Positions 50,687 through 58,064 of a stretch of DNA of 64,000 bases are shown one piece after another (within the stretch, counting starts at the first letter, position 1; each line of letters starts with the position of its first letter). Location of the stretch: NCBI RefSeq assembly GCF_012911935.1, contig NZ_JAAXLA010000017.1:1-64000 (forward strand). The letters run 5' to 3'. Under the pieces are notes generated by a model that was not told the origin of the DNA, did not search any database, and saw only the letters and a program-made list of their open reading frames with translations. This stretch comes from Pseudonocardia acidicola (GTDB lineage: Bacteria; Actinomycetota; Actinomycetes; Mycobacteriales; Pseudonocardiaceae). The translations under genes and the position numbers were made by a program.

Positions 50687-50761
50687 GGGGCGGTAGCTCA
50701 GTTGGTCAGAGCAGCGGACTCATAATCCGTCAGGTCGTGGGTTCGAGCCCCACCCGCCCCA
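50687..50761 (+). tRNA. tRNA with anticodon CAU (tRNA-Met elongator likely)
   Basis: Cloverleaf of 75 bases: acceptor ggggcgg / ccgcccc, D arm gctc-agttggtca-gagc, anticodon stem gcgga / tccgt with loop ctcataa (anticodon CAT at 50719-50721), T arm gtggg-ttcgagc-cccac, discriminator A. CCA is not encoded. Could be elongator Met or Ile2 (lysidine-modified); initiator is unlikely because the acceptor is fully paired. The integrase gene 88 bases downstream makes its 3' end the probable attachment site. Confidence 0.92.
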
Positions 50762-50849
50762 CTCTCTGACCAGTACAAACGTCAAAGAGAATGATCTTCA
50801 ATGCCTCGCGTGGGATCAAACGTGGTGCGAACGGCCCTAAGATGATCCC

Positions 50850-52637
50850 ATGGCAGGGGCCGGAGCCCGGCGGCGCAGGCGATCGCGAGGCAGCATCGAG
50901 GAGCTGCCGAGCGGCTCGTTGCGCGTGTCGGTATATGCCGGCATCGATCCGGTGACGAAGCGCCGGCACTATCTCCGGGAGATCGTGCCGGCGGGCCCGA
51001 AGGTCGCAGCCGAGGCCGAGAAGGTGATGCGCCGGCTCGCCAGCCAGGTGGACGAGCGTCGTCATCCGCGGACCAATGCGACGGTCGACCAGTTGCTCGA
51101 CAAGCATTTCGACCTCATGACGGTGGAGCGCAGCACGCTCGCGACGTACCAGGGCTACGCGGACAAGCACGTCCGGCCGCTGATCGGCACGGTCCAGGTG
51201 GGAGCGCTCGACGCCGATGTGTTCGATTCGTTCTACGCGGAGCTACGCCGCTGCCGGGAGCACTGCGACCGGCGGAAGTACATCAAGCACCGCACGGCGG
51301 CCGAGCACGTCTGCGACGACCGATGCATGCCACATGTGTGCATGCCACTCGGGACGTCGACGATCCGGCAGATCCACTTCATCCTCAGTGGGGCGCTGAA
51401 GCGCGCCGTGCGGTCGCGATGGCTGTCGGCGAACCCGATCACGCAGGCCGAACCGCCCGCGGCACCGAAGCCGAACCCACAGCCGCCGACGGCGCAGGAG
51501 GCGGCGCGGATTCTGGCCGACGCGTGGTCCGACCCGGACTGGGGCACGCTGGTCTGGCTCGCCATGGTGACCGGGGTTCGGCGGGGTGAGCTGTGCGGCA
51601 TCCGGTGGCGCAACGTCGACCTGGACGCGGGTGTGTTGACGCTGGACCGCAGCATCGGTCAGCGCGGCAGCCGAATGTGGGAGAAGGACACCAAGACCCA
51701 CCAGCACCGCCGCATCGCGCTCGACCCGGAGACCGTCGAGGTCCTCGTCGAGCACCGCCGCCGGTGCGGTGCACGAGCGGCAGCGCTCGGTCTCGAGCTC
51801 GCCGACGACGCGTTCGTCTTCTCGCTCGCCCCGGACGGTTCCATGCACCTGCAGCCGAACTCGGTCAGCCAGCGCTACGCGAAGCTCGTGCATCGGCTCG
51901 GTATCCGGACCTCGATCCACAAGCTGCGCCACTACTCGGCCACCGAGCTGATCGCCGCAGGCGTCGACGTGCGCACGGTCGCGGGACGGCTAGGGCATGG
52001 CGGTGGCGGCACGACCACGCTGCGCACCTACGCCGCGTGGGTGTCGGAGTCCGACCAGCGCGCGGCGACGAGCCTGTTCGCCCGGATGCCCGCCCGACCG
52101 GCCGCGGTCGTGCTCCCCAGGCTCGACGGGGACGGTACGGGGCCGCCGTACCAGCGCATCGCCGCTGCGCTGCGGTCGGCGATCGAGGCCGGCGTCATCC
52201 AGGCGGGCAGCTTCCTGCCGGGCGTGAAGGCGATCGCCGGGGAGTACGCCGTGTCGGTAGGGACGGCCCACCGAGCAGTCTCCAAGCTCACGGCGTCGGG
52301 TCACGTCGTGGTCGTGCCCGGTCGGGGCGTCCGCGTCACTGCGCTGGACATGCCCGAGCCGAGCTCGGCGCCGCCTCCACCTCCGCAGATCGTCGCGCCG
52401 GTTCGGCAGATGCTCGATCTGGAGATCCGCCACCGGGGTGGGACCGTTTCGAGGCTTACGGCCGAGGTCCACCCTGGCGACCCTGACGAGCTGCGGCAGG
52501 TGCTCGTCGATGCGATACGTCGCAGAGGAGGCGACGAGTCGCAGATCGCCGAGTACGAGATGGATCTGCGCCGCAGCGGCGACCAGTCACTCCTGACTAC
52601 GTTCGCTGCGATCCATCGCCCCGACAGCCGGTCGTGA
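50850..52637 (+). CDS. Tyrosine integrase fused to a C-terminal GntR winged helix
   Basis: 595-aa recombinase. N-terminal arm-type DNA-binding region (residues about 1-60), core-binding domain with a Cys/His-rich insertion (CREHC, HVCDDRCMPHVC; about 135-170), then the catalytic domain: Arg in GVRRGELCG (about 242), HKLRH (about 357), RLGHGG (about 381) and Tyr in LRTYAAW (about 393). After a linker, residues about 428-500 form a GntR-type winged helix (PPYQRIAAALRSAIEAGVI, then YAVSVGTAHRAVSKLTASG), followed by about 90 unassigned residues. It starts 88 bases after the tRNA, as in elements that integrate into tRNA 3' ends. Confidence 0.9.
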   Translation: MAGAGARRRRRSRGSIEELPSGSLRVSVYAGIDPVTKRRHYLREIVPAGPKVAAEAEKVMRRLASQVDERRHPRTNATVDQLLDKHFDLMTVERSTLATYQGYADKHVRPLIGTVQVGALDADVFDSFYAELRRCREHCDRRKYIKHRTAAEHVCDDRCMPHVCMPLGTSTIRQIHFILSGALKRAVRSRWLSANPITQAEPPAAPKPNPQPPTAQEAARILADAWSDPDWGTLVWLAMVTGVRRGELCGIRWRNVDLDAGVLTLDRSIGQRGSRMWEKDTKTHQHRRIALDPETVEVLVEHRRRCGARAAALGLELADDAFVFSLAPDGSMHLQPNSVSQRYAKLVHRLGIRTSIHKLRHYSATELIAAGVDVRTVAGRLGHGGGGTTTLRTYAAWVSESDQRAATSLFARMPARPAAVVLPRLDGDGTGPPYQRIAAALRSAIEAGVIQAGSFLPGVKAIAGEYAVSVGTAHRAVSKLTASGHVVVVPGRGVRVTALDMPEPSSAPPPPPQIVAPVRQMLDLEIRHRGGTVSRLTAEVHPGDPDELRQVLVDAIRRRGGDESQIAEYEMDLRRSGDQSLLTTFAAIHRPDSRS

Positions 52638-53200: not shown

Positions 53201-53698
53201 TCAGGCGGCCAACTCAGTGCTGTCATGTATGGATGCGCCGAAATTCTCTTTTGCCTGCTCGCGAACGTCGACGGAGAAGTCAGCGTAGTCGTTGCTGACC
53301 AGAACCTTATCCTGTGCTCCGATAGCCGCGCCGAGCACTGCGCGGTCGCGGGTATTGTTGGGCACTAGGCGGCGAATGACTTTCGCGTCGGCTTGGGAGG
53401 GTCGCGGGCTGAATGATACTCGATTGCTGAGTAGGAAGGATGTCAACAGTGCTAAGCCTATGGATTGAGGTGGGAGTGAGGAGTTGTACTCGGAGGCAAG
53501 AACGCTAGTCGAGAGGTCTGGTGCGCGTTTCCCTTGATCGTCAAGAACCCACAGTACTTCGGTGGTCTCACTAAGCCATGCCAAGATCGCTAGGGAAGAG
53601 TCCTTCTCTTCAGCGGCTCCGCCCCCACCCGCAGCATGAACGAGAACGTTCGTGTCAATCACAATGTCCCGCCTGCATTTATCCTTCAGGCTATGCAT
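53201..53698 (-). CDS. PIN-domain protein, partner of the DUF3696 ATPase
   Basis: 165-aa protein with a PIN-nuclease layout. The first Asp is in RDIVIDTNVLVHA (about 12-24), a conserved NNTRDRAVLGAA segment follows (about 115), and the last acidic residues are in KVLVSNDYADFS (about 133). PIN domains are Mg-dependent RNases, often toxins. Base composition is clearly less GC-rich than the chromosome and shared with the ATPase gene, whose end it overlaps by 8 bases. No antitoxin-like gene adjoins it; the ATPase is the likely controller. The middle region is diverged, so the fold call is moderately sure. Confidence 0.75.
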   Translation of the reverse strand: MHSLKDKCRRDIVIDTNVLVHAAGGGGAAEEKDSSLAILAWLSETTEVLWVLDDQGKRAPDLSTSVLASEYNSSLPPQSIGLALLTSFLLSNRVSFSPRPSQADAKVIRRLVPNNTRDRAVLGAAIGAQDKVLVSNDYADFSVDVREQAKENFGASIHDSTELAA

Positions 53699-55061
53699 CT
53701 GCGGCGCCTCGGGACTGTGCGAGCGCGAGGGCCATCGAGTCTCGAAGTTGTTCCTCAAAGAAGCCAGCAGGCCATGATTCGCGTTCGATTCCGCCATCGT
53801 CTGATATTGGAATCCGCTCGCTGACCGTTGCACCGTCTCGATTATCGAAAAAGTAGAGCGCGACATCATTGCTATCGAGCTCAGACATCTCGGCCATTCT
53901 CCTTCGTAATCTCAACAGAACGTGTTCGCTGTGGGTCTCAACTACAACCCGGCCGCCCCTCTGTGCAACCTCAATGAGGAAGTCCGTGATGATAAGCTGC
54001 TGAGCGGGGTTCAGGTGGATTTCGGGTTGTTGGGCAATGAAGGTGTCGCCGTTTCCTAGGGCGACCCCCTGGACGAGAAGTGGGAGGAGCTGTGACAGGC
54101 CGATCCCGCTGTGCGCAAAGTTGACAAGAAGCCCGGACCTGGTTCTGAGATTCAGGCGAAAGAATTCGTCCCCCACGTCATCGAATTCGATAGTCCCGTA
54201 TCCAAGTTTCTCCAGCCAGTAGCTTACGCGCTGTTTTTCTGCGCTTTCGCCTAGTCGGAAGAGGATCTCCGGCGCATGCTCTCCTTCCCGTCCAACATCC
54301 GTGGGTAGCTCTGCTGCTCGCCGGTAGGTTCGCAACGGGAGGGAGCGTAGTGGCCCGAGATAGGAAATCCCCTCAAGTAGCTCAACGAGCCGGTGGTTGA
54401 AGAAGCTGTAAGTGTCGTACATATCGCTTGCTGCGCTGAACCACGGCCGAGCTTTCTCCCATCGATCTTCATTCTGGCGCCATGAGCGGGGAAGTAGTAG
54501 TCCGCCGAAGCCGTTGAAAAGGAATCCTTTTGGTCGTTCTTCCCGCATTCCTTTGCGAAGCTGCGTGATCTCACGAGGCGGGCGACCAACTGATTGAGTG
54601 CTCGGGAGGAGCTGCGAGGTAACAGCGAAGCGCTTGCCGTCCTGCTCGCGCGTTCGCGTTATTAATGGTCGTCCGCGATCATCGAGTAGTCGGTGGCGTC
54701 TAAGGCGTGGCGTATCCCCATCAAGCGAATCGAACTGTACTTCCAGCGTCGTTGCTGTAAATTCTTGACTCTCAAGTCTGGGAATCTCGGGGACGGTGAT
54801 GGTCAGCGTCACGTTTCTGCGTTCGTCGTGCTGCGTGACGTAGTCCCGAAAAGGGCCAATATCTACTGCATCTCCACGGCTTAGCAGGGCCGTCTGTGGG
54901 TCGCGAGCGCTGAGCGTTTGACGCATCGCCAATAGTGGTGTGTATGCGGACGTTTTTCCTACATTATTCCGTCCAATGAGAACAGTAATGCGCGGGAAGT
55001 GAAATGTCGTAGGCTTCGCGAAACCGCGAAAGTTCTCCCAGGTCGCAACGATCGGCTGCAC
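53691..55061 (-). CDS. AAA/ABC-type ATPase of the DUF3696 (OLD-like) group
   Basis: 456-aa SMC/OLD-like ATPase. Walker A GRNNVGKT (residues 30-37), ABC signature HSGIGLSQ (about 315), Walker B region IAQQPEIHLNP (about 343; the family usually has EQPEIHLHP, so the first Glu is Gln here), and switch ETHSEHVLLRLRRR (about 376). The C-terminal DUF3696 block is VSERIPISDDGGIE plus WPAGFFEEQLRDS. No TOPRIM or other nuclease domain in the protein; the nuclease is likely the overlapping PIN gene. GTG start with aggggg upstream, preferred to a TTG 18 bases earlier. Low-GC island gene. Confidence 0.85.
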   Translation of the reverse strand: MQPIVATWENFRGFAKPTTFHFPRITVLIGRNNVGKTSAYTPLLAMRQTLSARDPQTALLSRGDAVDIGPFRDYVTQHDERRNVTLTITVPEIPRLESQEFTATTLEVQFDSLDGDTPRLRRHRLLDDRGRPLITRTREQDGKRFAVTSQLLPSTQSVGRPPREITQLRKGMREERPKGFLFNGFGGLLLPRSWRQNEDRWEKARPWFSAASDMYDTYSFFNHRLVELLEGISYLGPLRSLPLRTYRRAAELPTDVGREGEHAPEILFRLGESAEKQRVSYWLEKLGYGTIEFDDVGDEFFRLNLRTRSGLLVNFAHSGIGLSQLLPLLVQGVALGNGDTFIAQQPEIHLNPAQQLIITDFLIEVAQRGGRVVVETHSEHVLLRLRRRMAEMSELDSNDVALYFFDNRDGATVSERIPISDDGGIERESWPAGFFEEQLRDSMALALAQSRGAADA

Positions 55062-56782: not shown

Positions 56783-56912
56783 CGTACGCAGCTTGTGAGC
56801 GACTAACTGAGCGAAAACCACACCGGGGGAGTGGGGACGAACGTGGGCGGCTGCGGACGTTTGGCACGTGGCCGGGGCGTCGCTCCGTGGTCGAGTTGTC
56901 GGATGGAGTTCC

Positions 56913-56958
56913 TGGGGGTTAAGGGGTCGCAGGTTCAAATCCTGTAGTCCCGACAGTG
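56913..56958 (+). repeat. tRNA-Pro(GGG) 3'-half copy, direct repeat DR1
   Basis: Reads as the anticodon loop (tggggg), 3' anticodon stem, variable loop and T arm (gcagg-ttcaaat-cctgt) of a proline tRNA, ending in the acceptor 3' strand tcccgac. No 5' half is present, so it is not a gene. A near copy is at 58204. This is what an att site or recombination scar from a tRNA-integrating element looks like. The tRNA identity is from memory of actinobacterial tRNA-Pro sequences. Confidence 0.7.
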
Positions 56959-57065
56959 TGATGTGGGGGTGGGCGTCCATCGGCCAACGGAGGTCGTCTC
57001 GCACACGTCCCGCAACGGGGCTCAGCGTGGCTCCACCGGCGGACGCGGATGCCAGACTGAGCATC

Positions 57066-58064
57066 ATGGCCGATCAAGATGCCCACTTCCGCATCATGGA
57101 TGAGGCACTGAAGCATCCCGACGGTCGTGCTAAAGGCGGCGAGCCGTGCGTCATATGTGGCAAGCCAGTACCGGCCAGCGTTCACTGGGTGCAGCGTGAT
57201 CGGCATGTGTGCTCCGGGCGATGCAACAGCCTGCTGCGTCGTCGCTACGGCCGTGGCAGCGCGAGCATCAACGCCGAGAGAGTATCGGTGGCCGTTGAAG
57301 CCGTCGGACCCCGCCCAAGCCCGCGCACCAGCGACTCTCGCGTGTTCCGAACTCGCCCGGACGCCCACTTGCCACAGCTGCCCATCGAGTGGGAAGGCTA
57401 CGGCCCGCATCCCGGCGATGTGGTCGAGCGGTACGGCATCCTGACCCAATACGTCGTGCAAGACATGCCGGAGGGCTACTTCACGTCGCGAGTCGTGATT
57501 GCCGTTGCCGAGAGCGGCGACATGTTCGTGGCCGGCGCCAACGCCGATGGCTACTACTCGTCCCTGGTCATCGGGCCGCATGCACCAGGAAGCCAACGGC
57601 TCGAAGAGCAACTGTTCAGCTACACCTTCCAGGTCAACGGCGTGCTGTGCGAGTGGCGCCGTGAGCGCACCACAGACCTTCAGCCCGACGGCGTGGACTA
57701 CTTCTTCTGGGAGTGCTACGCCGCTGTGCCCGTCGACGCTCCGAAGTACCCCGATCCGATGCACTCCGCACGCTACCGAGCGGAGATGGATCGCCGCCGC
57801 CGCGTGAGCAGCAACGCGGCGAAGCACGAGCAGCGGGCGCGGGAGGAAGCCAAGATCGAGCGATTCGATCCGCTGGAGGTCTACGAACGTGACGGGTGGC
57901 TCTGCGGCATCTGTGGAGCGGAGGTCGACCCGGCAGTGCTCCATCCCGATCCCATGAGCGCGAGCCTGGATCACGTCGTGCCCTTGTCGAAAGGCGGCGA
58001 CCACACCCGAGAGAACTCGGTCCTCGCGCACCTCATCTGCAACATCCGCAAGTCGGCCAGTTGA
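57066..58064 (+). CDS. HNH endonuclease domain protein with N-terminal zinc ribbon
   Basis: 332-aa protein. Residues about 25-60 form a zinc-ribbon (CVICGKPVPASVHW, HVCSGRCNSLLRRR). About 95-250 is an unassigned central domain (HPGDVVERYGILTQYVVQDM). The C-terminus is an HNH nuclease: CGICGAEVDP, SASLDHVVPLSKGGDHTREN, VLAHLICNIRKSAS, with the DH and N/H positions intact. It probably cuts DNA in a mobile or defence setting. It is the only gene between the two tRNA-Pro-derived repeats. Confidence 0.82.
   Translation: MADQDAHFRIMDEALKHPDGRAKGGEPCVICGKPVPASVHWVQRDRHVCSGRCNSLLRRRYGRGSASINAERVSVAVEAVGPRPSPRTSDSRVFRTRPDAHLPQLPIEWEGYGPHPGDVVERYGILTQYVVQDMPEGYFTSRVVIAVAESGDMFVAGANADGYYSSLVIGPHAPGSQRLEEQLFSYTFQVNGVLCEWRRERTTDLQPDGVDYFFWECYAAVPVDAPKYPDPMHSARYRAEMDRRRRVSSNAAKHEQRAREEAKIERFDPLEVYERDGWLCGICGAEVDPAVLHPDPMSASLDHVVPLSKGGDHTRENSVLAHLICNIRKSAS

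Follow-up and report, generated by a model that had tools for sequence, protein, structure and literature searches.

The window analysed here is a stretch of 64,000 nucleotides from Pseudonocardia acidicola (contig NZ_JAAXLA010000017.1), and it carries two genes on the reverse strand that encode a DUF3696/OLD-type ABC ATPase and a small PIN-like protein (Table 1). The stop of the ATPase gene and the start of the PIN-like gene overlap by 8 nt (ATGCATAG), as an earlier note on this DNA had read it. An alternative, longer open reading frame of the small gene starts at 53869; the start chosen here, at 53698, is an aligned methionine in all four members of the family that were found. The GC content of the pair is 0.562, against 0.736 in the flank at 45–50 kb and 0.675 in the rest of the island (55.1–64 kb), and the marked drop in composition described earlier is thus real.

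The integrase-led island proposed in the same note is also present. A tyrosine integrase adjoins a tRNA-Met gene, the presumed attachment site, and bears a GntR-type helix-turn-helix domain at its C-terminus, a fusion that is unusual to our knowledge. The 3′ part of the tRNA (44 bp) is repeated exactly on another contig of the same genome (C111), and this repeat is likely the far attachment site; a truncated cytosine methyltransferase frame can be seen by eye beside it. On the window's own contig (C74), no second copy of the attachment site was found at 28 or more matching bases of the 44. With the repeat on C111 and none elsewhere on C74, the element probably runs off the contig, in a genome listed as 5.37% contaminated. 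The integrase and tRNA-Met mark one end of this mobile element, which probably measures about 50 kb or more. An HNH protein encoded 1.8 kb from the pair gives a weak match to the PADLOC model REase_II (4e-7). Beyond the window, the same contig encodes a TraG/TraD-type coupling protein, a TrwC relaxase, Prim-Pol, DUF3987, HsdM and HsdR, together with a PLD-like protein that matches the ZacB model (3e-13). The clear defence genes, HsdM and HsdR, start about 26 kb from the pair.

Table 1. Coordinates of the features discussed (positions in the window unless a contig or locus is given).
Feature	Position	Strand	Remarks
tRNA-Met (CAT), presumed attachment site	50687-50762	+	adjoins integrase
3′ part of tRNA-Met, 44 bp	50719-50762		repeated exactly on C111
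Copy of the 44-bp repeat	C111:1868-1911		same genome
Tyrosine integrase with C-terminal GntR-type HTH	50850-52637	+	Phage_integrase 3e-18, GntR 1.9e-13
PIN-like protein, 165 aa	53201-53698	-	ATG start
DUF3696/OLD-type ABC ATPase, 456 aa	53691-55061	-	GTG start
HNH protein	56868-58064		
HsdM	L070:16799-18421		same contig, beyond window
HsdR	L071:1-3132		same contig, beyond window
PLD-like protein	L071:5332-8004		same contig, beyond window
RNA ligase genes	L062:4534-5133, L064:4471-5163, L066:5354-6046, L073:5301-6002, L074:4301-5002		Rhodococcus, Tistrella, Azotobacter, Aeromonas

The larger protein matches AAA_15 (6e-13), DUF3696 (2.3e-9; 37.8 bits against a cut-off of 22) and AAA_21 (7e-9) in Pfam, all over the cut-offs. 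Its sequence contains what we take to be a Walker A motif (GRNNVGKT, residues 30–37), a Walker B region (IAQQPEIHLNP) and an H-loop-like element (ETHSEH, residues 375–380). Walker A, the C-terminal DUF3696 domain and the H-loop are all present, as befits a DUF3696/OLD-type ABC ATPase, the acidic Walker B position is Gln, and the ATPase motifs are invariant in all four members. The earlier reading of the Walker B segment as AQQPE was correct, and QQPEIHLNP is common to all four window-clade ATPases. At the first of these positions, Glu is found in all 38 other ATPase rows (34 read by pattern and 4 by eye), a set in which one locus is present twice and two rows are near-identical plasmids. At the second position, 25 rows have Q, 8 have N and 4 have E, out of 37 that were read by pattern and that include three rows of the window clade. 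Because Gln is frequent at the second position, the change specific to the clade is Glu to Gln at the first, and the retention of QQPE at 40–54% identity suggests function rather than decay. By the roles that the individual Walker B and catalytic-Glu positions have in ABC ATPases, the canonical acidic positions are both Gln in this clade, and ATP hydrolysis is probably slow or absent. The suggestion that slow hydrolysis could hold the complex in an armed state fits the conservation of QQPE. The predicted structure of the ATPase was of low confidence (pLDDT 48.8) and gave no usable model, and PDB sequence searches with the protein yielded only weak and uninformative matches, of which FtsE was the best (E 0.028 and 0.0065). 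Among PADLOC models, the window ATPase matches PDC-M55A (3e-51), NsnB (9e-50), HEC-03B (2.1e-45) and AriA of PARIS (7e-17). Since these models describe defence candidates, the matches support a defence-type reading of the protein.

Profile searches, which the earlier note had proposed for both proteins, succeeded for the ATPase and fell short for its partner. The window small protein matches PIN_3 alone, at an E value of 0.051 and under the cut-off; the Nocardioides relative reaches 0.0057, also under the cut-off, and those of Streptomyces and Brachybacterium give no Pfam PIN match at E ≤ 1. The PIN identity therefore leans mainly on a structure model and on motifs. An AlphaFold2 model built from a four-sequence input has a pLDDT of 89.6 and a pTM of 0.87. 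In it, D15 follows a first strand, E70 lies in a middle helix, D118 is near a helix start and D137 follows a late strand, and all four residues are invariant in the four small proteins. Such an acidic quartet with this order of strands and helices is the PIN layout. The best seven Foldseek rows against the PDB are RNA-free RNase P (five rows), FitB and MCPIP1, with TM scores of 0.40–0.48; pantothenate synthetase, a non-PIN protein, is eighth at low probability, VapC15 ninth and Nob1 twelfth, and weak matches to Exo1 and FEN1 stand lower. RNA-free RNase P, FitB, MCPIP1, VapC15 and Nob1 are all PIN-fold proteins. Nothing in the PDB matched at E ≤ 1e-3, and with a best value of 1.8e-3 and low TM scores the support for the fold comes from consistency and not from one strong hit. 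No viral structure matched the model at E ≤ 1e-3, and sequence searches of the PDB brought up no relative of the small protein. Taken with the invariant residues and the PIN-dominated head of the Foldseek list, the predicted model bears out the expectation that the smaller protein folds as PIN, and the protein resembles a PIN-like nuclease.

The window clade of ATPase–PIN pairs is rare, with four members over all searches: the window, Streptomyces ossamyceticus, Brachybacterium and Nocardioides. Both genes are present in all four and overlap by 4 or 8 nt, so that the co-occurrence on which the earlier note had staked its reading holds throughout. The three relatives are 54, 51 and 40% identical to the window ATPase and 49, 44 and 39% identical to the window PIN protein. 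A search of 296 genomes of the class with the ATPase gave a match at 1e-10 in 24; full-length close relatives (E 1.6e-89 or better) occur in three of these, window included, each with an overlapping PIN gene downstream. A contig scan with the PIN alignment retained three loci from 42 pattern matches (Brachybacterium, Nocardioides and S. ossamyceticus), in each of which the upstream, overlapping gene is the ATPase. When 394 genomes of the class were searched with a PIN profile, there were three strong hits, every one adjoining an ATPase; a marginal hit in one further genome (G311; E 0.0096, 30 columns) was treated as chance. A phylum search of 396 genomes added no close member; in six further cases the match is confined to the C-terminal half. 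The genome samples of these searches overlap, and their initial pass scores few candidates per genome. Among 200 genomes of the order, the one with a PIN relative is the window's own. PIN relatives were absent from viral contigs (53 and 68 stretches matched patterns), plasmids and phages. In viral contigs the window ATPase as query found no match, and a second ATPase query (A2) found one weak hit at 23% identity. Matches to window-type ATPases occur in 58 plasmid and 16 phage records, none of which covers 80% of the query. The 16 phage records, for instance P2-EC5 (AM157364.1) and Klebsiella phages, carry the C-terminal half at about 26–30% identity.

Low GC is common to the family. The Streptomyces pair has 0.525 against 0.631 upstream and 0.701 downstream (measured over just some 220 bases), the Brachybacterium pair 0.545 against flanks of 0.724 and 0.735, and the Nocardioides pair 0.576 against 0.724 and 0.734, so that all four pairs lie about 11–19 points under their flanks. 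This composition fits horizontal acquisition. The ATPase–PIN pair is a genuine, tightly coupled and horizontally spread two-gene unit. The expectation that the pair would recur as a coupled unit in defence islands stood for the coupling (four of four) and found weak support for the islands, since two of the four copies have no evident island. The Brachybacterium and Nocardioides pairs sit among ordinary-looking chromosomal genes, as judged by eye from their ORFs, and visual inspection of the ORFs up to about 10 kb from either pair revealed no integrase.

Elsewhere, window-like ATPases precede varied partners, often in overlapping or adjoining genes (nine loci noted). These partners include a 318-aa PDC-M55B protein, HEC-03A-type PIN-like proteins, a DUF2325-annotated protein and unclassified proteins of about 280–400 aa, some of which were covered by the library scans. 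A 177-aa partner at one locus (L039, G781:C223) looks by eye like a third PIN type; Pfam gives it no PIN hit and it was not counted. In a tree of 36 ATPase rows, which contains long branches, the window clade has support of 100/99 and its sister is a seven-row clade that includes the PDC-M55B-partnered locus (96/90). Eight HEC-03 rows form a separate group (98/94). Forcing the window clade and HEC-03 together costs 9.06 lnL (p-AU 0.062), which is not rejected at 0.05. Independent recruitment of PIN in the window clade and in HEC-03 is thus favoured but not proven.

HEC-03 is the known candidate whose layout comes nearest. It consists of a DUF3696-type ATPase (HEC-03B) followed by HEC-03A, a protein of about 160–177 aa that we take to be PIN-like by motif; where annotated, the two genes overlap by 4 or 20 nt. 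Of 292 genomes of the class, two gave a match to HEC-03A, each time adjoining a window-like ATPase, and tblastn placed it on five plasmid records. Three of these records were inspected and have the ATPase directly upstream (in Acinetobacter as two overlapping ORFs); in the remaining two, the match to the ATPase lies next to that to the PIN protein. In one hhalign comparison, HEC-03A and the window PIN family aligned with a probability of 89 (E 2e-6) over 56 columns, with the DTN and E-Y motifs in register. However, in the stretches searched, the HMM of neither PIN family hit the other at E ≤ 0.5, and HEC-03 ATPases have EQPE or EEPE and in some cases an RNA ligase, whereas window-clade ATPases have QQPE and no ligase accompanies them. 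The HEC-03B match of the window ATPase ranks third, after PDC-M55A and NsnB, and the best tree does not place the protein within the HEC-03 group. The window PIN protein matched no PADLOC family, HEC-03A included, at E ≤ 1, and the Nocardioides PIN protein none at E ≤ 0.001; HEC-03A also had no match in the window genome. Membership of the window pair in HEC-03 was not accepted because its partner is not matched by the HEC-03A model.

Other systems share one component with the window pair. PDC-M55A is the best PADLOC match of the ATPase, but the one sister-clade partner scanned is a protein of 318 aa that matches PDC-M55B (1e-88) and is not PIN-like, and no PDC-M55B partner appeared among the scanned neighbours of the window pair. 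The NsnB model of Menshen matches the ATPase, whereas NsnA and NsnC had no match among eight window proteins scanned, pair included. A review describes Menshen as comprising a DUF262 gene and a predicted OLD nuclease (PMC10952713), and no DUF262 occurs among the window genes scanned with Pfam. PARIS likewise combines an OLD-type ATPase with a separate small nuclease; the AriA model is a weak match, however, and the window partner models as PIN and not as the Toprim protein AriB, which sets the pair apart from PARIS. A recent paper describes OLD-ABC ATPases paired with HNH, PD-(D/E)XK or PIN nucleases beside BREX in 594 taxa, and names PIN endoRNases among the alternatives to Toprim in such pairs (PMC12839542, 2026). 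These dyads resemble the window pair by description only, and no BREX model is among the listed hits of the scanned neighbours. The statement in the earlier note that no named system joins DUF3696 with PIN was therefore not upheld, as PADLOC HEC-03 has this layout and OLD-ABC/PIN pairs are in print (PMC12839542). According to PMC12988326, HEC stands for "Hma-embedded candidates", of which several, HEC-06 included, are antiviral; HEC-03 is mentioned in PMC13356809. No occurrence of the term HEC was found in the 2021 and 2022 PADLOC papers. In the open-licence literature, no paper was found on DUF3696 with a PIN domain and defence, and on DUF3696 alone there was one paper, unrelated by title. 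The ATPase–PIN layout is thus already known as a candidate, and the window lineage, its unmodelled PIN protein and the QQPE signature were not found in print in that literature.

The neighbours of HEC-03 bear on what the nuclease may cut. An RNA ligase gene lies directly after the PIN gene in HEC-03 loci of Rhodococcus, Tistrella, Azotobacter and two Aeromonas plasmids, and the three of these five ligases that were scanned match Pfam RNA_ligase at 3e-34 to 1e-32. With an HMM built from four ligases, five of nine distinct HEC-03 loci are positive, a count biased by two near-identical Aeromonas loci that were inspected after the ligase had been seen there (three of seven without them). The negative loci are G436, G358, G634 (a short stretch) and that of Acinetobacter, where an HNH gene occupies this position. 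The same HMM found no ligase at any of the four window-clade loci; in the three genomes searched for RNA_ligase, those of the window and Brachybacterium had no match and that of Nocardioides one weak match elsewhere. The best nine plasmid hits of the Tistrella ligase are records that also match a window-type ATPase, and the other six listed hits are not among the listed ATPase matches. PIN nucleases leave ends that ligases can join. A ligase beside the HEC-03 PIN gene thus makes RNA the likelier substrate in HEC-03 and, by extension, in the window pair; five of nine loci in a biased sample are a hint in this direction. The HEC-03-type ATPase–PIN pair with its RNA ligase is also a possible cut-and-reseal RNA module in its own right.

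We lean towards the view that the window pair is an abortive-infection switch like PARIS, with a PIN RNase as effector where PARIS has its Toprim nuclease. The OLD-type ABC ATPase would bind ATP, dimerise through composite nucleotide sites and keep the PIN protein silent. A phage-derived cue, which may be a phage protein, an anti-restriction factor or an aberrant nucleic acid, would then cause the ATPase to free or license the PIN protein. The nuclease, with metals bound by D15, E70, D118 and D137, would cut RNA, most likely tRNA, and this cleavage would stop translation and phage production. With QQPE, the ATPase would probably act as an ATP-bound clamp that is released by ligand binding. Of this scheme, the analysis shows the coupling in four of four members, the PIN-like model with its invariant quartet, the low GC at different insertion places and the conserved QQPE; complex formation, silencing, the trigger, the RNA substrate and the defence role are inferred. 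Several points speak against such a switch, namely the weak Foldseek scores, the failure to pass the Pfam PIN cut-offs, the two of four copies outside an evident defence island, the lack of a ligase in the window clade and the rarity of the pair.

The same observations can be read in other ways. The pair could be an addiction module resembling a toxin–antitoxin system, in which a VapC-like PIN toxin is held by the ATPase as a large antitoxin or chaperone; it would stabilise the element and respond when ATP runs low or the locus is lost, and would have no sensor dedicated to phage. The closeness of the PIN model to FitB and VapC15, two overlapping genes on an integrase-bearing element, and low GC at different insertion places all suit such a module. 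However, its first gene encodes an OLD-type ATPase, unlike the familiar VapB antitoxins, the closest PADLOC models of this ATPase are defence candidates and related ATPases also pair with non-PIN partners, which together make addiction rather unlikely. A role outside defence, as an accessory RNA-processing factor or stress regulator carried by mobile elements, would explain why two of the four copies stand alone among ordinary-looking chromosomal genes and why the top fold match is RNA-free RNase P; we find it improbable, as scattered occurrence and low GC are more in keeping with a selfish or defence cassette than with a housekeeping role. Slightly less probable still is a module that targets DNA, in which the ATPase recognises foreign DNA (ends or plasmids) and a FEN1/XPG-like PIN protein cuts it. 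OLD/SMC-like ATPases often act at DNA, and Exo1 and FEN1 do appear, weakly and lower, in the Foldseek list, but the best matches are RNA-cutting PIN proteins and several HEC-03 operons have RNA ligases.

A broader and rather doubtful conjecture goes further. DUF3696-type ATPases may form a general chassis for immune sensing with exchangeable effectors, to which PIN nucleases were recruited more than once. HEC-03 would cut RNA, and some of its branches would reseal it by their own ligase in a reversible arrest and repair; the ligase-less window branch would instead be a non-hydrolysing, ATP-locked QQPE clamp, a one-shot and irreversible trigger. The window pair adds a PIN lineage that no PADLOC model matches, beside a recognisable ATPase, and shows that a defence-type ABC ATPase can lack the acidic Walker B residues throughout a clade. 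Operons of HEC-03 relatives that join a PIN gene with an RNA ligase predict that RNA may be cut and resealed.
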